From contig PLKG01000091.1 of NCBI GenBank assembly GCA_003140595.1, positions 70,807-115,213 on the forward strand: a stretch of 44,407 nt of DNA, written 5' to 3'. How positions within the stretch are numbered: position 1 is the stretch's first letter; every line of letters starts with the position of its first letter. The notes under the pieces were generated by a model. It saw only the letters and a list, made by a program, of their open reading frames with translations, did not search any database and had not been told where the DNA came from. The DNA comes from Acidimicrobiaceae bacterium (lineage in GTDB: Bacteria > Actinomycetota > Acidimicrobiia > Acidimicrobiales > Bog-793). Position numbers and translations under genes: made by a program. Positions 18,824 to 43,174 of this stretch are shown in pieces.

Positions 18824-19671
18824 CTACTGTTTGAGCGACCCTTCGAGGCGACCGCGCACTAGGTATCGCTGGAAGACGAAGAAAAGCACCGCGATCGGTA
18901 TCGTCGTGAGCAGGGCGGCCCCGAGTTTGAGCGGGAACTGGTTGCCCGCCGACAAGCCACCACCCACGATGTTCGCGAGGCCCGTGGTAAGGGTGAAGTA
19001 CTGCGGCGAGACGGTCGCCACTTCGAAGAAGGCGAACTCGTTCCAGGCGCCCTGGAACGACAGGATCGCGAGAGTGATGATGCCGGGTCGGACCACCGGC
19101 AGGACCACTTTCCACCAGGTCATGAATACGCCGGCACCGTCTATTCGTGCTGCCTCCTCGAGCGCTAGCGGCACCTGCAGGAAGAACTGGCGCATCATGA
19201 ATATCCCGGTTGCGTCGACGCTTATGGGCAAGATCATCCCCGGATAGCTGTTGAACAGCCCGAGCTGTTTCAAGATCAGAAAGCGCGGGATGAGCAGCAC
19301 GACGCCGTGGCGACGATGAGGCCGAAAACGATCCGACGGCCGCGGAAGTCGAGCCGGGCCAGCGCGTAGCCGGCCAGGCTGTCGAGGAACACGCGGGAAA
19401 CTGTGAGCACGGTCGAGACGAACGCGCTGTTGAAGAGCCAGCGCGGGAAGTCGGTGACCCCGACGTTGCTGATGCCGAAGATCTGGTCCCACGCCAAGAG
19501 GGTCGCCGGGTGGGGAATCGGGGAGAGCCCGTTCACGCTCGCGTCGGCGTCGGTCTTGAAGGAGTTGGCGAGCTGGATGGCGAACGGTGCCAGGTAGACG
19601 AGGGCGAAGACGCCGAGCAGCACGTAGACGAGGATCTGCCAATGCAGTGACCGATGCGAGCGCGTCCTCAC
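18824..19671 (-). pseudogene. Carbohydrate ABC transporter permease (MalG-like), frameshifted
   Basis: N-terminal part in the 19276-19671 frame ('...RRIVFGLIVAT'), remainder in the 18824 frame ('GVVLLIPRFLILKQLGLFNSYPGMILP...EEAARIDGAGVF...'); join near 19300. Confidence 0.75.
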
Positions 19672-20255
19672 TTGGTGAGATCCTCCTTCACGAACTTCCG
19701 CTGCAGGAGGGTGAGCATCACTATGAACGCGAACAACATGAAGGCGATCGCCGCGCCCTCACCGAAGGCGTAGTCCGAGAAGCTCACCTGGTACGCGAGG
19801 AACGCAGGAGTCACCATCGTCGGGTTGTGCGGCCCGGTGAGGTAGCTCTGGTCGAAGACCTGCCACGTGCCAATGAAGCCGAGCGTTGCGACAAGCAGGA
19901 CAATCGGTCGAAGCATCGGCAAGGTGACATGGCGGAAACGCTGCCAGGAAGTCGCGCCGTCGATCTCACTCGCCTCCTCGGCCTCCTCTGAGATGTTCTG
20001 CAACGCGGCGAGGAAGAACAACGTGAAGGTTCCAGACGTCGTCCAGACGGCGAGGACGATGAGCACGCACATCCCGAGCGAGGGCCCGGAGAGCCAGCCC
20101 CAGGCAGAGATCCCGAGGAACTGGTGGGTCGCCCAAGCCGGTGCATTGTGCACGCCCATCATGCCCAGGATCGAGCTGAAGATCCCGTTCTGGTCATAGA
20201 GCCAGTTCGGCCCGGTGATGCCGACGAAGCCCAGAACACGGTTGACCGCGCCAGA
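19668..20255 (-). pseudogene. Carbohydrate ABC transporter permease (MalF/UgpA-like), 5'-truncated
   Basis: 'EEAEEASEIDGATSWQRFRHVTLPMLRP' EAA loop present; homology starts abruptly at 'SGAVNRVLGFVG', so the first TM helices are absent. Confidence 0.75.
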
Positions 20256-20926
20256 GCGCCAACGGCGACCACTACCACGCCCGCGCCGTGTTAGTGGCAA
20301 CCGGCTCCAGCTACCGCCGTACGGGCGCGCCTGGTGAGGAAGGGTTGATCGGCGCAGGCATCCACTTCTGCGCGACCTGCGACGGCCCCTTCTATAAGGG
20401 TGCCTCCCAACTCATGGTGCTGGGCGGCGGGAACAGCGGCCTGGAGGAAGGCCTTTTCCTGACCAGGTTCGTCGACAAGGTGGTGATCGTCGAGCACAAC
20501 GACAAACTGGCAGCCCACAAGCTCCTGCAGGACAAAGTGGTGGCTCACCCGAAGATGGAACTCTTGCTCAACCGCAACGTGAGGGAGTTCCAGCCCAAGA
20601 ACGACGGCAGCGGCAAGCTCGGCACGGTCATCTTGGAGGACCGAAAGACGGGCGAGGCCACAGAGCACCACCCGGCGGGCTGCTTCGTGTTCATCGGCCT
20701 GGACCCCAACACCGCCTTTGTAAGGGGCCAGGTGAACCTGGAAGAGCGGGGATTCATCGAGACCGACGCAAGCTTCATGACGTCGATGCCGGGCGTATTC
20801 GCCGCCGGCGACGTTCGTGCCGGGTCTACAAAGCAGCTCGCCACGGCGGTAGGCGAGGGCGCGGCTGCCTCGATCCAGATCCGCCAGTACCTCGAGAGCC
20901 AGCTCGCCACGGCAGGAATGGTCTAG
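20256..20926 (+). pseudogene. Thioredoxin reductase-like protein, 5'-truncated
   Basis: 'HFCATCDGPF' redox CxxC, 'VLGGGNSGLEEGLFL' NADPH site, 'PGVFAAGDVR'; homology reads back only to 'NGDHYHARAVLVATGSS' and the N-terminal FAD GxGxxG segment is missing. Confidence 0.78.
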
Positions 20927-26009: not shown

Positions 26010-29000
26010 TTGGTTGGCAAGGTTTCGACTTCAGGGGCGCACTTGTCATTGCTTGTAGCACACGAGGAAAGCGAACGGGCTGAGAGCAGTCCTCTATCGT
26101 CACACGCGCTGCCACCGTCGTCGACGTTGTGGCTCTGGTTTCTCGGTCTCGAAGTCCTCTTTGCCCTGATCTACTTTCCTTTCGGGATTCCCTCGGGAAA
26201 GCCCTTGATCTTAGGTTTCCTTCCTTGGATGGAATGGCCAGGGCAGGTGCCCGCCTGGGCAATGCTGGGTCTATCTGCGGTGGCCGCGATCGCGTACGGA
26301 GTCAAGCGCAATCGGCCAAGCGCGCCACCTGGCTGGTGGTTCCTGGGTGCCGGTGTACTCCTCTTTATCACGGGTGACACGATCTACAAGTTCTGGCACC
26401 AGATCATGGGGCAGAACAACATACCGTTCCCCTCGTTCATAGATGCGATCTACGTAACTATGTACCCGGTTCTAGCTGTAGGGCTGCTACTTCTGGCGCG
26501 CGCGCGGATGCCCGGTGGCGACCGAGCAAGCCTCATCGACTCCCTGACGGTCACCCTCGGAGTGGGGCTTCTCTCATGGATCTTCCTCATTGGTCCTAAC
26601 GTCCGTGCTCCTGGAGGCACGCTCGCAAGGCTGACTGCTGCGGCGTACCCCCTCGGAGATGTTCTTCTGCTGGCGATGCTTGCTCACCTGTGGAGCTCTG
26701 GTGGCCTTCGCCACGCGGCGGGACGGTTGCTCGCGATCGGGGTACTTGGAACGCTCATGTCCGACTCGCTCTATGGGCTGGCCAACCTACACCCGAGCTG
26801 GAGTTGGAACGACGGCAACCCGATCGACCTCGGCTGGATTGTCTTCTACGCGTGCTGGGGAGCGGCCGCATTGCACCCGTCCATGAGAGCTCTGGCCGAG
26901 CCAAGGCCGGCCAGGACACTAACGACGAGCCGCTCCAGGCTCATGCTGCTCGCTACGGTCTCACTCATAGCGCCCGCCGTCCTGCTCGTCGAGGCAGCGC
27001 TCGGCAAACCCGTCGACGCCGAAGTCATTGCAGTGGTTGCGGGCACGATGTTCTTGCTCGTGCTCATGCGTATGGCCGGTCTGGTGCAGGCACACCAACA
27101 GGCCATGAGGCGAGAGAAAGTCCTGCGTCACGCGGCTGACGAATTGGTGGCGGCGTCCGGGCGCGACGGCACCTACCAGGCTATCGCCACTGCCGTGACC
27201 GAACTGGTCTCCGGGCGCAACGACATCTTGGGGGTGACGTTGGCTATATCGAGTCCGGCTGACGGTCTGGTGGTGGCGGCGCAGTCGGGGAACACCGGAG
27301 ACAAGCTTCTCAATCTGATGGCCTCGCGGCCCGAGCTGCGAACATCGCTGAACCGCGGAAAGACGGCTCGTTGGGCGAGCGAAATGACGTCATCGCCCGA
27401 ACGCCCAGACGAGGCGCCGGAGGGCTTTGTCATCTGTCCTCTCGTCTCCAAGGATGGCCTGCGCGGTCTGATCGCAGTTTCCAGCATCGCGGAGCTTTCT
27501 GAAGAGGTAACGAACACGATCGAAACGCTTGCCGCTCAGGCACAACTGGCGCTTGAGCGCGAGACACTCACAGAGACATTTCACGCCCGTCAAAGCGAGG
27601 CCCGCTTCCAGACCCTTGTCCAGAACGCCTCGGACGTCATCCTTGTTGCGCGCCCCGACGCGACCATCACCTATCAGACCCCTTCCGCAACGAGAACCCT
27701 CGGTTACGCGCCAGGCTCACTCGAAGGCCAACGGATAACGAGGCTCCTCCACCCCGAAGACGTCGAGCAGGCGCTGGCTGTCTACACCGGAGTCGCCTTT
27801 CGAGCGGGCGTGTCTGTCACGACACAATGGCGCATCCGGCACAGCGACGGTTCCTGGCGGCACGTCGAGGTGGTGGCGAACAACCTGCTGAGCGATCCGA
27901 CCGTCGAGGGCATTGTCCTCACGATGCGAGACGTGAGCGAACGTAAGGCCCTCGAGGACGAGCTCAAGCACCAGGCATTCCACGACTCGCTTAGTGGGCT
28001 CGCCAATCGCGCACTCTTCCTCGACCGACTGGAGCACGCGTTGGCGCGAGCGGCTAGATCGCAGTCCCTATTGGCCGTTCTCTTCCTCGACCTCGACGAC
28101 TTCAAGCTCGTCAACGACAGCTTCGGGCACGCAGCAGGCGACGATCTCTTGGTCGCGGTCGCTGGGCGCCTCACCAAATCGCTGCGAGTCGGCGACACCG
28201 CGGCCCGCTTTGGCGGTGACGAGTTCGCAGTTCTGCTCGAGGAGGTTGCGGGCTTCGAGGAAGCCAACCAAGTGGCGGAACGTATAATCACCGAGCTGCG
28301 CGTGCCCTTAACGGTTGAAGATCACCAGGTACAGGTGCATGCCAGCATCGGTATCGCCGTCAGCCCGGCAGGAGCCGAAGGTCCGGCCGAGCTGCTTCAG
28401 GCCGCCGATGTGGCAATGTACTCTGCCAAGTCCCGCGGCAAAGGTCGTTACGAGGTGTACCAGCCCGCACTGCAACAGGCCGTGTTAGAGCGGCTGGAAC
28501 GGACTGCGGACCTACAACGAGCAGTGGACAGACAGGAATTCGTAGTTCACTATCAACCGATCGTCACCCTCGACGGCAACGCGACCATCAATGGAGTTGA
28601 GGCGCTGGTTCGTTGGCGTCACCCTGAACGGGGACTTCTACTGCCAAAAGAGTTCATCCCGCTTGCTGAAGACACCGGCCTCATTATCCCGCTCGGGCGA
28701 TGGGTACTTCTGGAAGCGTGTCAACAGGCTCGCCAATGGCAGTTGAACCATAAGCTCTCCGATGCATTTCACGTCAGCGTGAACATATCAGCCCGGCACT
28801 TCGCGCACGACGGCCTGGTGGAGGACGTTTCGAATGCCCTCAAAGCGGGCGGCCTCGATCCGGGAAGCCTCGTTCTGGAGATCACCGAGAGCGTACTCGT
28901 ACAGGATGCCGATTCCGTGATCGCACGAATGCTGGAGCTCAAGTTGCTCGGCGTGTCATTCGCCATTGACGATTTCGGGACGGGCTACTCCTCGCTCAGC

Positions 29001-29318
29001 TACCTGAAGCGCTTCCCGATCGACATATTGAAGGTGGACAAATCCTTCGTTGACGATGTAGGCGAATCAGAAGACAGTGGCGCGCTGGCGGAGGCCATCG
29101 TCCAACTCGGAAACACCTTGAATCTGCAAACTGTCGGCGAGGGTATAGAGCAGGTCCGACAAGTTGAAGGTCTTCGCTCCCTCGGGTGCCAGTTCGGCCA
29201 GGGCTTCTACTTCGCGAAGCCGCTGCGCGCAGAGCAAATCGACGAGCTGTTGTCCCGACTTCCTGCCACCCATCCAACTTTGAAGGCAACCCCCCTGAGA
29301 GAGGACTCCTTGAGATGA
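26010..29318 (+). CDS. Membrane GAF-PAS-GGDEF-EAL bifunctional c-di-GMP enzyme
   Basis: Multi-TM N-terminus; PAS 'EARFQTLVQNASDVILVARPDATITYQTPSATRTLGY'; I-site RVGD five residues before 'GGDEF'; 'NGVEALVRW', 'DDFGTGYSSLSYLKRFPIDILKVDKSFV'. Confidence 0.93.
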   Translation: MVGKVSTSGAHLSLLVAHEESERAESSPLSSHALPPSSTLWLWFLGLEVLFALIYFPFGIPSGKPLILGFLPWMEWPGQVPAWAMLGLSAVAAIAYGVKRNRPSAPPGWWFLGAGVLLFITGDTIYKFWHQIMGQNNIPFPSFIDAIYVTMYPVLAVGLLLLARARMPGGDRASLIDSLTVTLGVGLLSWIFLIGPNVRAPGGTLARLTAAAYPLGDVLLLAMLAHLWSSGGLRHAAGRLLAIGVLGTLMSDSLYGLANLHPSWSWNDGNPIDLGWIVFYACWGAAALHPSMRALAEPRPARTLTTSRSRLMLLATVSLIAPAVLLVEAALGKPVDAEVIAVVAGTMFLLVLMRMAGLVQAHQQAMRREKVLRHAADELVAASGRDGTYQAIATAVTELVSGRNDILGVTLAISSPADGLVVAAQSGNTGDKLLNLMASRPELRTSLNRGKTARWASEMTSSPERPDEAPEGFVICPLVSKDGLRGLIAVSSIAELSEEVTNTIETLAAQAQLALERETLTETFHARQSEARFQTLVQNASDVILVARPDATITYQTPSATRTLGYAPGSLEGQRITRLLHPEDVEQALAVYTGVAFRAGVSVTTQWRIRHSDGSWRHVEVVANNLLSDPTVEGIVLTMRDVSERKALEDELKHQAFHDSLSGLANRALFLDRLEHALARAARSQSLLAVLFLDLDDFKLVNDSFGHAAGDDLLVAVAGRLTKSLRVGDTAARFGGDEFAVLLEEVAGFEEANQVAERIITELRVPLTVEDHQVQVHASIGIAVSPAGAEGPAELLQAADVAMYSAKSRGKGRYEVYQPALQQAVLERLERTADLQRAVDRQEFVVHYQPIVTLDGNATINGVEALVRWRHPERGLLLPKEFIPLAEDTGLIIPLGRWVLLEACQQARQWQLNHKLSDAFHVSVNISARHFAHDGLVEDVSNALKAGGLDPGSLVLEITESVLVQDADSVIARMLELKLLGVSFAIDDFGTGYSSLSYLKRFPIDILKVDKSFVDDVGESEDSGALAEAIVQLGNTLNLQTVGEGIEQVRQVEGLRSLGCQFGQGFYFAKPLRAEQIDELLSRLPATHPTLKATPLREDSLR

Positions 29319-30613
29319 ACGGCCCGACTTCAACCTTGAACGTGGCCTCCACCAACGGCCACGACTTCCATGGTGAGTCAGAAGCCGTGCGGCGTGACGC
29401 GCGGTGGGCGGACCTCGAGCGTCTACGGGCGTCGCACCCAATGATGGACGCGGTGATAGACGAGGTGCACGGCCGAAAGATCCGCATCGGAGATCAATGG
29501 CTCTGTGACTTCGCGTCCTGCAACTATTTGGGATTCGACCTTCACCCGGAGATTATTCAGTCGGTGGAGCGGGAGTTATGGAGATGGGGTACGCATCCGA
29601 GCTGGTCACGGCTGCTTGGCAGTCCTCGCGTTTACGTCGAGATCGAGGAGCAACTCACGGCCCTGCTGGGAGCACCTGACTCGCTGGTGCTCCCGACAAT
29701 CACGATCATTCACTCTTCGGTGATCCCCGCCCTTGCCGGTCAGGGCACCGTCCTGGTCGACTCTCAGGCGCACAAGACCATCTACGAAGGAGCCGCTATC
29801 GCCCATGGGGCGGGCGCGACCATCCACCGCGTCAGAGCGAACGACTACGACCACTTGGAGGAGATCCTGCGCTCGTTACCTGCAGGCGGACCCCGGCTGT
29901 TCTGTATCGATGGAGTGAACAGCATGACTGGCAATGTGCCGGACCTGACCGCATATGCGCGCATATGCCGTGAGTACGAGACGCTTCTCTATGTCGACGA
30001 CGCTCATGGCTTCGGAGTAATCGGAGAGTCGCCTACAGAGGCGATGCCCTACGGACGGCGAGGCAACAGCATTGTCCGATACTTCGATGAAAGCTACGAC
30101 AACATCGTGCTGGTGGCCGGCTTTTCCAAGTCGTACTCGTCGCTGCTCGCCTTCTTGGCGCTTCCCACTTGGATGAAGAACCACCTGAAGGTCGCTGCCG
30201 CGCCCTATCTCTACTCGGGACCGTCGCCAACGGCGTCGCTCGCGACGGTTCTCGCCGGCTTTCGCGTCAACGACGCCGAGGGTGACGATCTTAGGGCGGC
30301 CCTCTGCCGCAAGACCGCTCGAGTACTCGACCGGATCGCGGAGCTTGGTTTACGCACCTTGAACACTTCAGGTTTCCCGGTAATCGAGCTTCCGCTCGGC
30401 GACAGCGATGACATCGACGCCCTGGGACGGTTCCTCTTCGACCGGGGAATCTACGTGACACTGGCTGCGTACCCGCTCGTGCCGAGATCGCAGGTTGGCT
30501 TCCGGGTGCAGATCACAGCGGCCAACGGCGACGACGAGATCGAACAGCTCAACGAGGTCTTAGGTGAACTAGCAGCATGTTTTGACATGCAGCAAGCACC
30601 AGATCCTGCTTGA
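29315..30613 (+). CDS. Alpha-oxoamine synthase family PLP enzyme
   Basis: 'DFASCNYLGFDLHPEI', 'GTHPSWSRLLGSPRVYVEIEEQLTALLGAPDSLVLPT', 'DDAHGFGVIGE', PLP-Lys region 'VAGFSKSYSSLLAF'; ATG overlaps the upstream TGA. Confidence 0.87.
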   Translation: MNGPTSTLNVASTNGHDFHGESEAVRRDARWADLERLRASHPMMDAVIDEVHGRKIRIGDQWLCDFASCNYLGFDLHPEIIQSVERELWRWGTHPSWSRLLGSPRVYVEIEEQLTALLGAPDSLVLPTITIIHSSVIPALAGQGTVLVDSQAHKTIYEGAAIAHGAGATIHRVRANDYDHLEEILRSLPAGGPRLFCIDGVNSMTGNVPDLTAYARICREYETLLYVDDAHGFGVIGESPTEAMPYGRRGNSIVRYFDESYDNIVLVAGFSKSYSSLLAFLALPTWMKNHLKVAAAPYLYSGPSPTASLATVLAGFRVNDAEGDDLRAALCRKTARVLDRIAELGLRTLNTSGFPVIELPLGDSDDIDALGRFLFDRGIYVTLAAYPLVPRSQVGFRVQITAANGDDEIEQLNEVLGELAACFDMQQAPDPA

Positions 30614-30641
30614 GCCAAAGTGCGGCGATGGCACACCCAAC

Positions 30642-31913
30642 ATGACCGCGAGGCGGCCCAGTCAAGTCGGAATACTTGCGCCACTGCGGCACCGTGACTT
30701 CCGCCTGTTGTGGACCGGCCTGGTCGTCTCGCTGCTCGGTGACGGGATCTTCCTCGTGGCGGTCGCTTGGGAGGCCTACAAGATCGATGATCAACCTTCA
30801 GCCCTCGCCGGCGTAGGTCTCGCGACTTCGGCTCCCCAAGTTGTTCTTCTCCTCTTCGGCGGGGCGGTTTCCGATCGTCTTCCGCGCCGCATGGTGCTCG
30901 TCGCGGCCGACTCAGCGCGGGCTCTCGCTGTCGGCAGCCTCGCAGTTCTCGCGTCCCTGGGACACCTGGGTCTGTGGGAACTGTGGGCCGTGGCGTTCGT
31001 AATCGGCGCCGCAACGGCGTTCGCTGCCCCGGCGTTCGACGCCATTGTGCCCACGTTGGTGCCCGAAGAGCGGCTGCTGGAGGCTAACGGACTAGACCAA
31101 TTCATGCGACCAGCAGCGCTTCAGTTGCTTGGCCCAGCCATTGGTGGAGTGCTTCTCACTACGGTCGGCAGCGCAGGCGCATTCGGTACGGACGCGCTTT
31201 CCTTTGTGATCTCTGGGTGTTGCATAGCCGCGCTCTCCCCAGTTGCGTCAGTCACTGTGCCTGTCGAGAGCGGATCGCTGTGGGCCGACATTGGAGTCGG
31301 CTTGCGTTATGTCCGGAGCCAGGTGTGGCTCTGGGGGACTTTTGTGTCCGCCACTTTCACCTATCTACTCTTCCTGGGACCCACCTATGTGCTCGTTCCG
31401 TACCTGGTCAAGAACCGGCTACATGGCAGCGCCGCCACACTCGGGGTTGTGCTAGGCCTCGGAGGACTCGGCGCTCTGTCTGCGGCGGCTGTCACTGCAC
31501 AGGTCGGTGATCGGGGCCGTCACCCGATCACATTCCTGTACGCAGCGTGGACGGGAGCAACGCTCCTCGTGGCTGGCTACGGGTTGGTCACCCTTCGGTG
31601 GCAGCTCGCGGCGCTCGTGTTCTCGGTGGGAGCTCTCGAAGCGGCCGGAACTGTCGTGTGGGCGACGCTCAAACAGCGACTCGTGCCGAGCCGACTGCTT
31701 GGCCGAGTTTCGAGCATTGACTGGTTCGTGTCGACGGCGCTGATGCCGCTGTCGTACGTGTTGACTCCGCTCGTCGTGCGCCTCGTCGGTGTGAGCGCGA
31801 CCTTTGAACTAGCGGGCACACTTGGAGCGGTCGTGACTCTTGGCTTCCTGTTCTTACCCGGCATGCGAACCAATGAGCGCCCGACGACGGCGCCGGAGGT
31901 CGCCGGGCGATAG
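30642..31913 (+). CDS. MFS transporter, putative exporter (MFS_3/EntS-like)
   Basis: 'LRHRDFRLLWTGLVVSLLGDGIFLVAVAWEAY', 'LLLFGGAVSDRLPRRMVLVAADSARALAVG', about 12 TM; ORF opens at 30582 inside the preceding gene. Confidence 0.87.
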   Translation: MTARRPSQVGILAPLRHRDFRLLWTGLVVSLLGDGIFLVAVAWEAYKIDDQPSALAGVGLATSAPQVVLLLFGGAVSDRLPRRMVLVAADSARALAVGSLAVLASLGHLGLWELWAVAFVIGAATAFAAPAFDAIVPTLVPEERLLEANGLDQFMRPAALQLLGPAIGGVLLTTVGSAGAFGTDALSFVISGCCIAALSPVASVTVPVESGSLWADIGVGLRYVRSQVWLWGTFVSATFTYLLFLGPTYVLVPYLVKNRLHGSAATLGVVLGLGGLGALSAAAVTAQVGDRGRHPITFLYAAWTGATLLVAGYGLVTLRWQLAALVFSVGALEAAGTVVWATLKQRLVPSRLLGRVSSIDWFVSTALMPLSYVLTPLVVRLVGVSATFELAGTLGAVVTLGFLFLPGMRTNERPTTAPEVAGR

Positions 31914-32525: not shown

Positions 32526-35447
32526 TCAGTAGCGATACATTGCCGCGGCGACCCTCCTACTTTTCCCGCCAACTGCGGACACCGTTACGTAAACGACGCC
32601 TGAACCAGCAGGCACGGTAGCTGTGATCTCAGACGACGAAAGGACGCGCACGCCCGTTGCCAGTGTCCCACCGAAGTGCACCAGGACGGTCCCGACAAAG
32701 TTGCTTCCCTGAATCGTGACCGGGGTGCCGCCTCTCGTGGGTCCGGCGGTGGGCGTGAGCTTGGTGACCCTCGGCGCGGCCACGAACGCGTACCTGGCTG
32801 TGCTGGTTCTCTTGCTTAACCCACCGAAAGCCGAAACGGTCACGTAGACAGTGCCCGACCTCGGCGGCGAAGTAGCGATGATCTCCGATGACGACAGCAC
32901 ACGCACGCCCGTTGCCAGTGTCCCACCGAAGCGCACCGACACGGTCCCAACGAAGTTGCGTCCCCAAATGCCCACCTTCGTGCCGCCCTTAGCGGGTCCT
33001 GTGGTCGGCGTGATCCCGGCGACAGTCGGAGCTGGCACGAAGGTGAACCTGTCCCTGGCAGTTCTCCCGCTGGACCCACCGGCGGTGGAAACCGTCACAT
33101 CAATGGCGCCGGAGCCTGTCGGCGCAACCGCGCTGATCTCAGATGATGAGAGGAGGTGAACATTCGTTGCCGGTATCCCACCAAAACGCACCGATACGGC
33201 TCCGACGAAGTTGCTTCCCACGACCGTCACCTTCGTGCCGCCCAGCGCCGGGCCAGCAGCGGGCGTCACTCCAGTGACTGTCGGCGGCGGTGGGACCCCG
33301 AAGGTGAACTCATCAGCCACAGTGACTGGACTGAGCGTCATGTCCTCCACTGAGATCACGAGATTATCCGTTCCCGACTCTGTGACCGGGAGAGTGCCGG
33401 TACAAAGTGTGGTTGTCGAGCAGGAAACGGTGATCCATGTTGCACCGACCTCAAGCTCATCCGCTCCCGCGACCGGGAGGAACCCTGAACCAGTGATGGT
33501 CACCGGGGTCGACTCGTTGGTCGGCCCCTCATTCGGCGACACGCCGGTGATGGTGGTGCCGAGATCCGTCCCGGATTCAAAGCACATCTGAGCGGCGAGC
33601 CCTGGGTAGAAATTGCCGGTATGAGCGAGAATGGGAGATCCGAGGCCGCTCGCCATGTCGTAACCCACCGTCGCCGGGTAAAGGCCACCTGAATAGCCGG
33701 ACGGCGAGTAGTCGTTGTTGCCTGTCGTTATGTCATTGAAGGCGAGAGCATGATAAAACGAAGCCCAAGCAGCGATGTTGTAGAGAGCTGCAGGCTGCAT
33801 GAAGGCGTCTCCCGACCCGTCGTATGTGCAAAAGGGGGATGCGCCGATCAGTGCAGCGGCTGCCGCCCACAGCGGTGCTGCTGCGCTCGTACCACCAACC
33901 GGCCCCCAGCCAGTTGCGAAACTTGAGTTCGATCCGCTGTAAAAGAAGGTGTACCCGGAACTCGGGTCAGCGTCCGCCGAGACGTCTGGAACCTGACGTA
34001 AGTAAGGGACGGTCGATCCGCACAATGTCGGATTGGAACTCGAGTACGAGCTGATCAAACCTGGGACCTTGGGGTGATCCTGGTAGAAGGGCATGCACTC
34101 GGCTGCCGATACCCCGCCCCCGCCGGCGCCGCCCGTGTCGGTCGAGTCATTCCACACGCTCTCGGAGTTGGCGACGAGCGACGTGCCTCCAACCCCGATG
34201 ACGTAGGGCTGGCTTGCCGGATCGAGCACCGAAGGAGTGGGCCCGTTCGTCGTGCCCTTGTCGCTGTAACAGTCGGTCGAGCCGGTGTCGCCCGCAGCCG
34301 AGAACACTGTCTGGCCTTGCGTCGCAGCCTGTGCGAAGAGAGCGCTCTCTGACTGGACCAATGCGATTCCTGCGTCCAACTCGCAGAATCCCCAGGAGAC
34401 GGACACGACCTCGTCGGTGTCGGAGTTGACGATGGTCGAATAGACGTCCCAGCTGTTCGAGTTGCCTTCCTGATAGACGTCGACAGTCGCGTCGGGGGCG
34501 AGCCCGATGATGTCCTCGATGTCGAGGGCCGCTTCGCCGGTGCCCGCGCCTGAACCGGTGCCTCCGTCGACCGGTATGTAGTTCACGGTGGTGTCAGTCC
34601 CGTAACACACCTGGTAAGCCGCGACGTCGGTAGGCAAATTCGGCTCGAACTCGACTAGGGCGACTTTGACTCCCTGTCCGAAATCACCCAAGGCGTAGAG
34701 CGGATCAAAGCCGTAGAAAGCAGCCAACTGATCGGCCGTGTGGCTCCCGCCCGAGCTAGCAGCGGCGATGGCTGCCGCGCAAGGTGTTGGACCCGCCATT
34801 GTCGGATCAGCGTCTCGCGAAGCGCGCGATGCGGATCGCGGGACATGCGGACTCGCAAGCAAGCTCTCGGGCGGAACGACATCGCTGAGGCCGAGAATCC
34901 CCTGGATGTACACGGCCACAGACGCCGAAATGCTCGGTGGCCACAAGGTTGTGAAGGCCGTGCGTCCGTTGGGTAGCCGGTAGTCCACGAGCCGCACATG
35001 CAAGGCACGATCGAGTGCTGCCACTGGCGCAAGTACCGGGATCGAGAGTCGATCCGCGGCCACTTGCCCAGGGTGGAGTCCGTCGGAGCGGAGCACGGCG
35101 TCGACAGCCTCCACCTCAGACAACGGAGGACCGAAAAGTTGACCGAATTGGCCGGGGCGGAGGAAGTGGTGGAAGTCCGGCGAGTGCCGATCAGACAGAG
35201 ATGCGATGAAGGAGGCCACGGCCGACGGATCTGGCAGCTTTAGCGTGACGTCGATATGAAGATCAGTCGAGGACGACAGGCGTCCAAGCGCGAGTGAGCG
35301 CGCTGGAGGTAGTGGGCTGGCGCTCCGATACAACACCGCGAGCCCAGATGAGACAACCGCTTGCGCGTTCGAACGGATAGGGAAAGAAGTGGTGCATGAG
35401 AACACTGCAACTACAGGTACGAATGAAACTACTAGGCGGCGTCGCAT
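32526..35447 (-). CDS. S53 family (sedolisin/kumamolisin-like) secreted peptidase with C-terminal IPT/TIG repeats
   Basis: Pro-domain 'HFLRPGQFGQLFGPPLSEVEAV'; 'EAALDIEDIIGLAPDATVDVYQ'; 'SAAGDTGSTDC'; 'GWGPVGGTSAAAPLWAAAAALI'; repeated 'P.V.GITPTTGPAKGGTKV.I.G.NFVG.VSVRFGG'. Confidence 0.92.
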   Translation of the reverse strand: MRRRLVVSFVPVVAVFSCTTSFPIRSNAQAVVSSGLAVLYRSASPLPPARSLALGRLSSSTDLHIDVTLKLPDPSAVASFIASLSDRHSPDFHHFLRPGQFGQLFGPPLSEVEAVDAVLRSDGLHPGQVAADRLSIPVLAPVAALDRALHVRLVDYRLPNGRTAFTTLWPPSISASVAVYIQGILGLSDVVPPESLLASPHVPRSASRASRDADPTMAGPTPCAAAIAAASSGGSHTADQLAAFYGFDPLYALGDFGQGVKVALVEFEPNLPTDVAAYQVCYGTDTTVNYIPVDGGTGSGAGTGEAALDIEDIIGLAPDATVDVYQEGNSNSWDVYSTIVNSDTDEVVSVSWGFCELDAGIALVQSESALFAQAATQGQTVFSAAGDTGSTDCYSDKGTTNGPTPSVLDPASQPYVIGVGGTSLVANSESVWNDSTDTGGAGGGGVSAAECMPFYQDHPKVPGLISSYSSSNPTLCGSTVPYLRQVPDVSADADPSSGYTFFYSGSNSSFATGWGPVGGTSAAAPLWAAAAALIGASPFCTYDGSGDAFMQPAALYNIAAWASFYHALAFNDITTGNNDYSPSGYSGGLYPATVGYDMASGLGSPILAHTGNFYPGLAAQMCFESGTDLGTTITGVSPNEGPTNESTPVTITGSGFLPVAGADELEVGATWITVSCSTTTLCTGTLPVTESGTDNLVISVEDMTLSPVTVADEFTFGVPPPPTVTGVTPAAGPALGGTKVTVVGSNFVGAVSVRFGGIPATNVHLLSSSEISAVAPTGSGAIDVTVSTAGGSSGRTARDRFTFVPAPTVAGITPTTGPAKGGTKVGIWGRNFVGTVSVRFGGTLATGVRVLSSSEIIATSPPRSGTVYVTVSAFGGLSKRTSTARYAFVAAPRVTKLTPTAGPTRGGTPVTIQGSNFVGTVLVHFGGTLATGVRVLSSSEITATVPAGSGVVYVTVSAVGGKSRRVAAAMYRY
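32640..33300 (-). repeat. Three tandem 255-bp (85-aa) IPT/TIG-encoding repeats
   Basis: Matching 'cgttgcc..tgtccca' cores at 32655, 32910 and 33165, spaced exactly 255 bp. Confidence 0.88.
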
Positions 35448-38139: not shown

Positions 38140-39900
38140 TCAGCCCGGCCCGAGTACCGAGTCCAGCACGGCGAGCTCGCGCACACCCACCAGACCGAGG
38201 TCGGTGATCGCGTAGTCGGGGATGGATGTGATCTCGAGGAACATGAGATAGCCGAACGCCGTCGGCAGCTTGCAGCCGAGTGCCCGTGCAGCGGAGTCCA
38301 GTCGTGCCTCGGCTGCCGCCATCGTCTCGACATCGATGTCGGCCACGATCCCACCGACAGGCAATGCCAACGTCTCAATTACCTTCCCACCGTCTGTGAC
38401 TGCGAGGCCTCCCCTGAGCTCGATCACCGTGTTAATCGCAAGAGCCATGTCGGAGGGGTTCGTCCCCACGCAGATAATGTTGTTGTCGTCTGGAGCGGCA
38501 CTCGTGGCCAGTGCCCCCGAGTTGAGGCCGAATCCGCACACGATCGCGACAGACAGATTCGTCGTCTTGCCGTAGCGCTCGACGACGGTCACATAGAGAG
38601 CATCCTTGGCAACGTCGGGTCTTACCGAACCATCGACTACTTCCAGGAGAACATCGCGGCGACGGCGCACAAAGGGCACCTCGCGGTCCATCTCCATGGC
38701 AAGCACCCTTACCGGGGATCCGAGCTCAGTCGGCATGCGGATCTCGTCGGGCTCGAGCGGTCTCCGATTCATGGTGTCGAGCAGCGCCGGTCCCCTTGTC
38801 GGGACGAGTGGAGGACGTAGCGCGCGGCGACCCTCAGCGACGAGGACTCCCTTGGACACCACTTTGTCTACGACAAAGCTGGCGGGATCGTCGATGACAA
38901 CCACGTCTGCGGCCCGTCCAGGACATATCGAGCCGACGAGGTGGTCGATCCGATACATCTGCGCCGTGTTGATGGTCGCCATCTGAATCGCCGTGATTGG
39001 TGGCACGCCAGCTGTTATGGCCATGCGAACCAGCCGATCGAGGTGCCCATCCCGGAGCAGGCTCGTCGCCGTCACGTCGTCGGTGCAGAAGCCGACGCGG
39101 CCTGGATTGGCCCCGAGCCGTGTCACGACCTGGATGTTCTCCTCCATGAAGTGGGCGACGGCCGACTCTCGTACCATCACGTACATGCCGGCTCGCATCT
39201 TTGTGAGGACCTCTTCGGCGTTGTAACTCTCATGGTCTAAGCGGACGCCTGCGGCCGCCAGCACGCCAATGGTGGCCGCGCTTGCCATGGGCGCACAGCC
39301 GAAAACCGGCAATCGGTTCCGCCCCGCCATCTCGATGACCTCGAGCACCTCGGCGTCACGATTGGTGATGAACTCAGTCACCGTCTCCCATACGCCGAAG
39401 CAATCGTCCCACTTCTGGGCGATCTCATGGACCTCGGGGCCGAGCCGGAACCCCACGTTCGACTCGGGGATCGTGTACGGGACTTTGTAGGGTGCCGCCC
39501 AGAAGATCTTCATCTGGCTGGCCTCCGCCTCCGAGAGTGCATCTCGCACGCCTTCCAGCCCTGCAACGGCGTAGGTCTGGTCCAACCCGGAGACAACGCT
39601 CGTCGTGCCGCAACGGACCACGGCGTCGGCGAACATCGTCACCGACAACTTGCTGCACTCGATGTGGAGGTGACCGTCAATCAGGCCCGGAACCAAGTAC
39701 CGGCCCGTCACGTCTATGACTGTCGTGGCAGGTCCTGTATTGGGGGTGACATCACCCACCGCCGCGATCATGTCGCCAACGACAGCCACATCCGCCGGAT
39801 AGACCTCGCCGGTCGCCACATTGACAAGCCGGCCGCCGGTCAGCACCAGGTCGGCTTTCCGAACACCTTCGGCTGCGTCGATCTTCTCTCGTAGTTGCAC
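38140..39900 (-). CDS. ade: Adenine deaminase (amidohydrolase superfamily, Ade type)
   Basis: 'ADLVLTGGRLVNVATGEVYPADVAVVGDMIAAVGD', 'VPGLIDGHLHIECSKLSVTMFADAVVRCGTTSVV', 'GFCTDDVTATSLLRDGHLDRLVRMAI'. Confidence 0.92.
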   Translation of the reverse strand: MQLREKIDAAEGVRKADLVLTGGRLVNVATGEVYPADVAVVGDMIAAVGDVTPNTGPATTVIDVTGRYLVPGLIDGHLHIECSKLSVTMFADAVVRCGTTSVVSGLDQTYAVAGLEGVRDALSEAEASQMKIFWAAPYKVPYTIPESNVGFRLGPEVHEIAQKWDDCFGVWETVTEFITNRDAEVLEVIEMAGRNRLPVFGCAPMASAATIGVLAAAGVRLDHESYNAEEVLTKMRAGMYVMVRESAVAHFMEENIQVVTRLGANPGRVGFCTDDVTATSLLRDGHLDRLVRMAITAGVPPITAIQMATINTAQMYRIDHLVGSICPGRAADVVVIDDPASFVVDKVVSKGVLVAEGRRALRPPLVPTRGPALLDTMNRRPLEPDEIRMPTELGSPVRVLAMEMDREVPFVRRRRDVLLEVVDGSVRPDVAKDALYVTVVERYGKTTNLSVAIVCGFGLNSGALATSAAPDDNNIICVGTNPSDMALAINTVIELRGGLAVTDGGKVIETLALPVGGIVADIDVETMAAAEARLDSAARALGCKLPTAFGYLMFLEITSIPDYAITDLGLVGVRELAVLDSVLGPG

Positions 39901-40111
39901 GTGGCCTCCACCTCGAGTCGAGCCGAACCCGCGTTCGCGGCTCGGACAGCCAGAGCCCGACCTGAACTGATCATCTCCTTGGGTCTCGTATCAGGTCAAA
40001 TCCCGCGAACGGACGAGGAATTTACCTGTAGTTGAGGCCCTAGTAACGTGCCACCCAATTCTTTTGCAAGCAACGGAGAAGGCACCGACTGGTTGTTGGT
40101 CGAGCTAGTCG

Positions 40112-40155
40112 CGGTCACGGTCGAGCCTCCACCGTCAAGGGACGGAGGGTGACCG
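40112..40155 (+). promoter_or_regulatory. RNA hairpin sequestering the SD and start codon of the NCS1 permease
   Basis: CGGTCAC (40112-40118) pairs with GTGACCG (40149-40155); inner CCGTC-AAGG-GACGG stem (40132-40145); the SD GGAGG (40144-40148) is inside. Confidence 0.55.
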
Positions 40156-41621
40156 TGGGTCAAGACGAAAATCGGGGAGACGCTGCTAACTCCGCCGCCG
40201 ACCCCGCAACTACGCGTTCCATGGGAATTGAGCGGCGCGGCATCCAGCACGTGAGTGCCGACGAACGCTGGGGCACCCCGAGCGCACTGTTCTGGATGTG
40301 GACCGGCGCGATCTGGAACGTCGAGTACGTGGTCTACGGCACGCTGCTCGTCGCCATCTTTGGCCTGTCCTTCGCTCAGGCGGTGCCAGTCATCATCGTC
40401 GGCAGCATTGGGTCATATCTCCTGACCGGGCTCACCAGTCTCCAGGGACCCCAGGCCGGCACGACGGCTTTCACGATCAGTCGAGCGTCCTTCGGTCCGA
40501 GCGGGAACCGAGTGCCTTCTCTCTTCAACTGGATAACACAGGTCGGATACGAAACCGAGGGTATCGCTCTTGTCGTACTCGCAGGCTTGGCCCTAGCCGC
40601 GAAGGCCAACGTTGCCGGTAGCACCGGGCTGAAGATCGGTCTGCTCATCGGAGCCGTGCTAATCCAAGCGCTGCTCCCCTTCGTCGGCCATACCGCCATG
40701 CTGAAGGTTCTGAAGTGGTTGGCTTTCCCCTTTGTCGCCCTCTTCGTAATCATGGCGATCATCACCGCGTCGAAGGTCAACCTTCACGTGACTCCGCACG
40801 GTGCGGGCTGGGGTGGATTGATGGTGGCACTCGCCCTCATTATGTCCGCCGGCGGACTGGGCTGGACCGAGAACGCCAACGACTACTCCCGCTACCTTCC
40901 GCGCAATGCAAGCAAGAGCGGAATCATTCTCGCCGTTGCACTAGGCGGAGCGATCCCCTCGATCCTGCTTGAAGTGCTCGGTGCCGCGGTGGCAACCGCA
41001 GTACCGGTGACGTCTGCCTACACCGTAGCCTCGGTGACTGGCCTGGTCAGCGTATTCCCGGGCTGGTTCGTTGTCCCCTACCTGATCATCGCCATCTTCC
41101 AGCTCTTCGCGATCAACAGCGTGGACCTCTACTCATCGGGTGTAACACTCCAAAGCCTCGGCATCCACCTGAAGCGGTACCAATGCGTGATGATCGACAC
41201 GGTCGTGTCTGGCGGTTTCGCCGCTTACGTGATCTTCTCCCAGCACTTCAGCCAGTTGCTGTCGGACTTCCTGCTCTTCATTATCGTCTGGGTGGCGCCC
41301 TGGTGTGCCATCTACCTCGTCGACTACTTTCTACGGCGCGGCCGCTATGACACCCAGGCGCTGCAAGACGAGAGGGGCGGGATCTATTTCCGCAACGGTG
41401 GATGGAACTGGCGGGCTCTCGTCGCTCTGGGCATCGGGATGATCGCGGCAGCCGTTTGGCTCAACGCCTACTCCCCCTACGTGTCACCACTGTCCAGCCG
41501 GATAGGTGGCTCGGACTTCAGCATCTTCATGGGGATGATATTCGGCGGAGTCAGTTACTACCTGCTTGCTCGCAAGTCCGTCCCAGCCGAAGCCGAAAAG
41601 ACACCGGTAGCCCCGCAATAG
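40155..41621 (+). CDS. NCS1-family purine/cytosine permease
   Basis: 'WGTPSALFWMWTGAIWNVEYVVYGTLL', 'GPQAGTTAFTISRASFGPSGNRVPSLFNW', 'GWTENANDYSRYLPRNAS'; GTG at 40155 has better SD spacing than 40149. Confidence 0.88.
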   Translation: MGQDENRGDAANSAADPATTRSMGIERRGIQHVSADERWGTPSALFWMWTGAIWNVEYVVYGTLLVAIFGLSFAQAVPVIIVGSIGSYLLTGLTSLQGPQAGTTAFTISRASFGPSGNRVPSLFNWITQVGYETEGIALVVLAGLALAAKANVAGSTGLKIGLLIGAVLIQALLPFVGHTAMLKVLKWLAFPFVALFVIMAIITASKVNLHVTPHGAGWGGLMVALALIMSAGGLGWTENANDYSRYLPRNASKSGIILAVALGGAIPSILLEVLGAAVATAVPVTSAYTVASVTGLVSVFPGWFVVPYLIIAIFQLFAINSVDLYSSGVTLQSLGIHLKRYQCVMIDTVVSGGFAAYVIFSQHFSQLLSDFLLFIIVWVAPWCAIYLVDYFLRRGRYDTQALQDERGGIYFRNGGWNWRALVALGIGMIAAAVWLNAYSPYVSPLSSRIGGSDFSIFMGMIFGGVSYYLLARKSVPAEAEKTPVAPQ

Positions 41622-41868
41622 TCGCGGCGTACCTCCCGCACAGGAGCCCGGTCTGCTCAGAAGCCCCCGGCCCTTCCTGCCTGACAGCAATCCTGGTCGC
41701 TCACACATCTTGACCGTGCGCAAAGGATCGTGAACGCAGCTGACACCGCGGACAAACACGGCGCGCCAGGCTTCGAAAGCTAGCGCCGAAAGACACGGCC
41801 ATCTGTGATGTCGTAGACGCTACCGACCGCACAGATCGGCGTCGGGCCTCCTCATGACGTACCTTGGA

Positions 41869-42876
41869 CTATGGGTTGCCTGCCGCATAGTGCGCAAGTT
41901 CGGCGAGTAATTCTTCCTTCGCGCCTGTCGACAGCCATGCGATTTCGAAAGCGTTGCGCTCCAGCTGAACGAGCTCTGCTTTGGTGAGGGAAGCCGAGCT
42001 CGCCAACGACTCGAGGTTGGCGGTGAGGTAGGCCGCGAAGTACGCCGGGTCATCCGAGTTCACGGTCACTTTCAGTCCGCGCTCGAGCATCAATTTCAGT
42101 TCAGTGTCCTTCAAGTCCCCGGTGACGTAACGATTTGACACCGGACAGACCGTAAACCCGATACCTCTCGTCGCGGCTTCAGCCACGAGTTCGTCGGATT
42201 CGAGGACATTCATGCCGTGGTCAATTCGCTCGACGCCTATGACGCTCAGGCACTGACGAATGTGATCAACGATATCGAGTTGATCGACGTCGCAGTGCAT
42301 TGTCAGGCGGTACCCCTCTGACTTCGCTCGAGCGAATACGGCAGCGAACTTTGTGGGCGGATTGTCGCGTTCGTCGGAGTCGAGTCCAATCCCGATGATG
42401 GAGTCGCGGTATGGAAGGGACTCGAGCAGTGTTGCCATGGCGTATTCCGCCGAGTGGTCACGAAGAATGCACAAGATCAACTGCGCTCGGATCCCGAGTA
42501 GCCGCCGGGCATCAAAGAGAGCCCCACGCAAACCGCTAATCACGGAGTGGAATTCGACTCCTCTCGAAGTATGCGCTTGGGGATCGAAGAAGATCTCCGC
42601 GTATCGAATATTCTCCGAGGCCGCCCTCTCCAAATAGGACCACGCAAGGTCATAGAAATCTTGGGGCTTCACCAGCACCGACATCGCGTCGTAGTACACC
42701 GGTAGGAACGAGGACAGGTCATGGAACACATAACCGGCACGCATCTCGTCAATGTCGCGATACGGCAGGGCAATGTCATTGCGCCCCGCCAGCTTGAACC
42801 GCAGTTCGGGCTCAAGCGTTCCCTCGATGTGAAGGTGAAGTTCGGCCTTCGGTAGTCCGTGAATGAAGCTTGTCAT
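41869..42876 (-). CDS. Adenosine/adenine deaminase (Add family, adenine-deaminase-like)
   Basis: 'LPKAELHLHIEGTLEPELRFKLAGRN', 'GIGLDSDERDNPP', 'HCDVDQLDIVDHIRQCLSVIGVERIDHGMNVL', 'TVNSDDPAYFAAY'; ATG at 42876. Confidence 0.9.
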   Translation of the reverse strand: MTSFIHGLPKAELHLHIEGTLEPELRFKLAGRNDIALPYRDIDEMRAGYVFHDLSSFLPVYYDAMSVLVKPQDFYDLAWSYLERAASENIRYAEIFFDPQAHTSRGVEFHSVISGLRGALFDARRLLGIRAQLILCILRDHSAEYAMATLLESLPYRDSIIGIGLDSDERDNPPTKFAAVFARAKSEGYRLTMHCDVDQLDIVDHIRQCLSVIGVERIDHGMNVLESDELVAEAATRGIGFTVCPVSNRYVTGDLKDTELKLMLERGLKVTVNSDDPAYFAAYLTANLESLASSASLTKAELVQLERNAFEIAWLSTGAKEELLAELAHYAAGNP

Positions 42877-43174
42877 ATCAGACACTTCAGATTCCCTTTC
42901 GATGCGAGCCTGGAAGCAAGGTAGCGAGTTTGGCCAGCTAGGTCCAGTTAGGCCTTGAGCCTTGCTAGCAAGGGCAAGCAACACCGAGCAGCCTTCGCCA
43001 CAAAGAGCCACCGCAGCCCCCTCGACTACGGGGGGTGCGGCGGTCAGCCTCGGAGCAGACACCCTTTCGCCGGAGGCTTCGACTGGAGAGGACGCCGGAG
43101 GCACTAACGTAGGTTTCCTGGCTAGCTCAGCTGATGGGGACGCAGTCCCAGTTCAAAGGGGCAAATCGGCGCTG

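Follow-up and report, generated by a model that had tools for sequence, protein, structure and literature searches.

The window analysed here, a stretch of 44,407 nt from an Acidimicrobiaceae bacterium (GCA_003140595.1, contig PLKG01000091.1, positions 70,807 to 115,213 of the forward strand), contains three co-directional genes on its plus strand. These encode, in order, a membrane sensor with PAS, GGDEF, and EAL domains, an alpha-oxoamine synthase (AOS), and a transporter of the major facilitator superfamily (MFS). The features of this operon, with the evidence for each in parentheses, are as follows.

26049 to 29318, plus strand: membrane sensor-PAS-GGDEF-EAL gene (start uncertain; TTG at 26010 is the earliest, and TTG at 26049 or a later start is equally possible)
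26100 to 27098, plus strand: N-terminal membrane domain of about 10 predicted helices, the constant partner of the AOS (alignment; AlphaFold model with a mean confidence, pLDDT, of 88.8)
27603 to 27935, plus strand: PAS domain (Pfam scan, residues 519 to 629)
27975 to 28445, plus strand: GGDEF domain (PF00990, residues 643 to 799)
28506 to 29222, plus strand: EAL domain (PF00563, residues 820 to 1058)
29297 to 29305, plus strand: purine-rich, ribosome-binding-site-like GAGAGAGGA ahead of the AOS start (read directly from the sequence)
29315 to 29318, plus strand: ATGA, the 4 nt shared by the end of the GGDEF-EAL gene and the beginning of the AOS gene, which starts with ATG at 29315 to 29317 (sequence)
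29315 to 30613, plus strand: AOS gene, 432 amino acids (aa), new subfamily (Pfam Aminotran_1_2, tree, and AlphaFold model)
30128 to 30130, plus strand: codon of K272, the predicted pyridoxal phosphate (PLP) lysine (aligned to E. coli BioF K236)
30642 to 31913, plus strand: MFS transporter gene (MFS_3/DHA3-like), an optional third member (Pfam MFS_3/MFS_1)

The overlap of the first two genes had been placed correctly in the initial annotation, the exact start codon of the first gene apart. The longest form of the GGDEF-EAL open reading frame (ORF) runs from 26010 to 29318 and stops at TGA (29316 to 29318). The MFS frame had been described as opening within the AOS gene, which is true of the ORF, although TTG at 30582 is merely its longest-ORF start and ATG at 30642, 29 nt past the AOS stop, is the most plausible one. 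Pfam matches in the three proteins are PAS, GGDEF, and EAL in the first, Aminotran_1_2 in the second, and MFS_3/MFS_1 in the third. An Rfam scan of the window gave no match, on which ground riboswitch control was rejected, and a search for sigma-70-type promoters found none.

The pairing of this type of AOS with the membrane sensor recurs beyond the window. With a neighbourhood distance of 5 kb, the membrane domain lies beside the AOS in 31 of the 33 distinct loci collected for the subfamily, in several actinobacterial families, and in the phylum sample alone the pairing is present in 24 of the 25 other genomes that carry this AOS type. Either gene may come first, and the two may share a strand or lie on opposite ones, with most of them co-directional. 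Start and stop codons overlap by 4 nt in the window and in loci L036, L039, L041, and L084, again with either gene first. Together, the frequency of the pairing and the recurrent overlaps indicate more than chance. As a control, the 1.5 kb on either side of 28 other actinobacterial AOS genes contained neither the sensor nor GGDEF or EAL. One of the two loci without a nearby sensor (G189) lies near a contig end; the other is taken up below. A distant AOS with 31% identity (L071) likewise adjoins a membrane-domain histidine kinase, and one locus (L073, genome G240) has sensor, PAS, GGDEF, EAL, and AOS in a single ORF of 1635 aa, which comes from one assembly and could reflect a sequencing error. 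A second apparent fusion, of 1444 aa in Solirubrobacter (L036), proved spurious, the frames there merely overlapping.

The window AOS is a member of the AOS superfamily (PLP fold type I), as judged by its fold, the PLP lysine, the stacking histidine, and the Asp/His residues. By its sequence, it belongs to a well-supported subfamily outside BioF, KBL, serine palmitoyltransferase (SPT), and CqsA. In a tree that took in E. coli BioF and KBL, 5-aminolevulinate synthase (ALAS), SPT, 15 CqsA/LqsA proteins over the curated cut-off, and many actinobacterial AOS, the window AOS and its relatives (mostly 60 to 80% identical) form one fully supported clade outside all of these known types. In a careful tree of 42 rows, this clade and its sister together have a support of 100/100, and no single nearest known AOS emerges. 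Furthermore, all curated NCBIfam AOS models (BioF, SPT, KBL, ALAS, and CqsA) were missed by far: the top score was to BioF (TIGR00858), with 173 bits against a cut-off of 426, followed by SPT (NF047600; 150 bits, cut-off 640), KBL (TIGR01822; 118 bits, cut-off 493), and CqsA (NF005526; 86 bits, cut-off 428). Trees and cut-offs thus rule out membership in BioF, KBL, SPT, ALAS, or CqsA, and the separation from BioF, KBL, and SPT bears out the initial annotation, as does the lack of a biotin context. The AlphaFold model of the AOS (pLDDT, 88.7) has its best PDB fold match in ThaOS (E = 3e-31) and then in BioF, SPT, and KBL; the CqsA NCBIfam model and PDB entries also match, i.e., CqsA is an AOS-fold enzyme.

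The possibility that the enzyme is BioF, KBL, or another housekeeping AOS that happens to lie in this operon draws on its closest solved relatives, which are of the BioF/KBL type but share <30% identity with it. We regard it as highly improbable in view of the separate clade and the missed cut-offs. In addition, neither bioA nor bioB was found over its curated cut-off anywhere in the host genome (assembly rated 94% complete), and a role in biotin synthesis is therefore unlikely; the other AOS of that genome is a separate KBL on contig C108. A chance operon is itself ruled out by the conserved pairing with the sensor.

Alignment shows that the catalytic residues H153, D228, H231, and K272 are conserved in the subfamily. 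We take their roles to be those known from E. coli BioF, with K272 as the PLP lysine, H153 as the stacking histidine, and D228 and H231 as part of the DDAHG motif. The window AOS shares the fold, these residues, and a conserved C-terminal arginine with BioF, KBL, SPT, and ALAS. However, it differs from them not only in its separate clade but also in having C69 for an Asn conserved in other AOS, an IH pair for AN at positions 132 and 133 (H133), and an insert of about 10 aa after the GVIGE motif. Sequence and model agree that it is a catalytically plausible AOS, and it probably has its own substrate preference; from the fold, we infer acyl-amino-acid chemistry.

The insert is common to a sister AOS type that is fused behind an AMP-binding domain (fatty acyl-AMP ligase [FAAL]-like) and a PP-binding domain and that lies beside the same membrane sensor in the following loci.

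L093, 6309 to 9806: FAAL-like AMP-binding/PP-binding/AOS fusion
L094, 9730 to 13182, minus strand: the same fusion, assigned by eye
L031, 3596 to 6343: the same fusion, partial

Such an enzyme, with FAAL, acyl carrier protein (ACP), and AOS domains, may load, carry, and condense an acyl chain, and the fusion suggests that acyl-ACP can be an acyl donor in the AOS lineage. It would also suit lipid synthesis. The AOS might make a membrane lipid (sphingoid-like or an aminoketone), with the sensor reading the state of the membrane or its lipids and c-di-GMP or a kinase regulating lipid production, so that no intercellular signal would be involved. The place of SPT among the nearest folds, the roughly 10 membrane helices of the sensor, and the optional nature of the MFS gene all fit this explanation. 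However, we consider it unlikely, as the AOS lies outside SPT and no lipid-assembly gene (acyltransferase or reductase) recurs beside it.

The recurrent neighbours of the AOS are sensors, MFS transporters, and response regulators, together with a Peptidase_S13 gene in some loci, and no further biosynthetic gene is conserved. An MFS gene is present in 15 of the 33 loci, which is a lower bound given that some loci end at contig ends. The export role first proposed for it is partly supported, and export by the MFS protein would be optional. Models of drug and siderophore efflux (TIGR00900, Tet(V), and EntS) match the MFS protein below cut-off, which would fit an AOS that makes an antibiotic-like small molecule for export by the MFS protein, the sensor only regulating the operon without binding the product. 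This, too, appears doubtful, and more so than lipid synthesis: the MFS gene is missing in more than half of the loci (some of them cut by contig ends), whereas the sensor is nearly always there, and further conserved biosynthetic genes are lacking. In one locus with an AOS/sensor/MFS operon (L089), a cobalamin riboswitch (RF00174; 5113 to 5243, minus strand) lies about 3.4 kb upstream and is apparently unrelated.

The constant partner of the AOS is the membrane domain of about 10 helices; GGDEF-EAL as such is not constant. It is the commonest output after this membrane domain, but others are PAS-HisKA (L074), PAS-histidine kinase-REC (L079), HisKA_3 (L090 and L091), and a hybrid histidine kinase-REC-REC-Hpt (L093). 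Loci with histidine kinases often have LuxR-type or other response regulators close by, and three loci (L074, L075, and L080) have two sensor copies, one per output type. The stoichiometric link of synthesis to c-di-GMP turnover that the initial annotation proposed is not supported, given these kinase outputs and the varying gene order and strand. In the window protein, the GGDEF motif, the RVGD I-site, and the EAL catalytic motif are all intact, and net c-di-GMP synthesis versus breakdown is therefore not predictable. Like MASE-type domains, the membrane domain is a multi-helix domain in front of GGDEF, and 7 of 30 members of its family match Pfam MASE5 weakly (best E = 1.5e-4). However, the window copy has no Pfam match, and the family has its own profile of about 283 positions. 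In the sensor tree, the AOS-linked copies fall in few groups (the linkage label needs 6 changes, versus 16 under shuffling), and one supported clade consists of 22 copies, every one of them AOS linked. This conserved domain, which had been overlooked earlier, speaks for the perception of a signal and against co-metabolism.

Where a synthase is so regularly accompanied by a membrane sensor of swappable output, the two are best read as a signal synthase and its membrane receptor, a reading to which we assign a probability of roughly 0.5. The AOS would condense an amino acid with an acyl thioester, which may be acyl-CoA or, following the fused sisters, acyl-ACP, and release a hydrophobic alpha-aminoketone or a hydroxyketone derived from it. 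The product may diffuse out of the cell or, in loci with the MFS gene, be carried out by the transporter and would then bind in or at the membrane domain of the neighbouring sensor. On binding, the cytoplasmic GGDEF-EAL module (in other genomes, the histidine kinase) would change its activity, and c-di-GMP would thereby report the signal concentration. The fuller proposal falls somewhat short of an even chance: that this is an undescribed system of the Actinomycetota in which a diffusible AOS autoinducer of the acyl-aminoketone or hydroxyketone type is read by a new family of receptors with about 10 helices, these being c-di-GMP enzymes or histidine kinases, with receptor and synthase fused in one lineage. 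A literature search found no paper that connects AOS to GGDEF or c-di-GMP, in keeping with the initial annotation, which knew of no system with such an architecture; most subscription papers were outside the coverage of the search.

Several observations weigh against a dedicated synthase-receptor pair. Many AOS have no part in signalling. The membrane domain belongs to a broad family, with members in 141 of 397 phylum genomes, most of which lack this type of AOS, and this rules out that the sensor is exclusive to AOS loci. For the 20 best sensor loci with no AOS next to them, the stretch examined contained none at all. The genome of the window itself encodes a second sensor-GGDEF-EAL protein (L159; G000:C43:17371-18216, minus strand), a close paralogue without a linked AOS that is possibly a second receptor. 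In Solirubrobacter soli (L040), the second locus without a nearby sensor, the AOS is accompanied by an MFS gene; signalling genes downstream encode a response regulator-SpoIIE protein and a CHASE3-histidine kinase. A PDB fold search with the membrane domain gave no match at E < 0.001, and 15 cqsA loci, searched with the sensor profile in flanks of only 1.5 kb, gave no match either. In favour of such a pair, AOS and sensor distances correlate over 27 loci (r = 0.61, P = 0.0002), but with species phylogeny uncontrolled.

Some actinobacterial families in the sample often carry this AOS subfamily. Within the class to which the window belongs, by contrast, the cluster is found only in the window's genome among 247 sampled, which rules out conservation within the class. 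A metagenome-assembled genome of a bog Acidimicrobiaceae carries a relative at 80% identity, and the FAAL-fused type occurs in one genome of the window's order. Horizontal transfer is the probable route of acquisition. Spread by plasmids was rejected, as plasmid-borne AOS were all <60% identical (about 30% at best). Of the three-gene unit initially described, the neighbourhood of AOS and GGDEF-EAL sensor is conserved across relatives, and the MFS gene is optional.

Immediately downstream of the operon, on the opposite strand, lies a large ORF for a secreted protease-like protein (32526 to 35447, minus strand; sedolisin-like by eye), in which IPT-like segments are repeated toward the C terminus. 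Elsewhere in the window, in the region from 19668 to 20926, a thioredoxin-reductase-like ORF (plus strand), apparently lacking its N-terminal part, meets an ABC-permease-like ORF (minus strand) head to head at about 20290, a possible truncation or assembly junction; both names were assigned by eye. Also by eye, the region from 38140 to 43104 encodes an adenine deaminase (minus strand), an NCS1-type permease (plus strand), and an adenosine deaminase (minus strand), possibly a purine salvage group.

If the operon does encode a signal synthase and its receptor, it would extend alpha-hydroxyketone-type chemistry to the Actinomycetota, a soil phylum known for natural products, and the receptor would act directly on c-di-GMP. 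In addition, an orphan family of membrane sensors, present in about one-third of the sampled phylum genomes, would gain a candidate ligand. The candidate is encoded beside the receptor, and the question thus lends itself to a direct test.

Signalling by alpha-hydroxyketones has been described in Gram-negative bacteria. A defining trait of the CqsA/LqsA synthases is the formation of a 3-amino- or 3-hydroxyalkan-4-one from acyl-CoA and S-adenosylmethionine or aminobutyrate. The window locus resembles CqsA/CqsS of Vibrio and LqsA/LqsS of Legionella in that an AOS-fold synthase gene is clustered with a gene for a multi-helix membrane sensor, which in several relatives of the locus is also a histidine kinase. 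However, the window AOS lies outside the CqsA clade, and its sensor has about 10 modelled helices, versus six, with GGDEF-EAL as the output. Both known systems are synthase/sensor-kinase gene pairs (PMC3285556, PMC3376566), and a chimera has shown that the six-helix membrane domain of CqsS can drive a cyclase (PMC4821796). In BDSF (Burkholderia diffusible signal factor) signalling in Burkholderia and Cronobacter, RpfF and RpfR are an adjacent synthase and PAS-GGDEF-EAL receptor (PMC6361424). The window likewise has a PAS-GGDEF-EAL protein with intact motifs, here beside an AOS gene whose product is a putative signal, but the two synthases are unrelated, RpfF being a non-AOS enzyme that acts on 3-hydroxyacyl-ACP. 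RpfR is drawn with FI and PAS domains ahead of its diguanylate cyclase and phosphodiesterase domains, without a membrane sensor of about 10 helices, and rpfF and rpfR are convergent, whereas the AOS and sensor genes are mostly co-directional. By analogy, the odds appear balanced that the operon functions in the manner of CqsA/CqsS or LqsA/LqsS and that its c-di-GMP output resembles that of RpfR.
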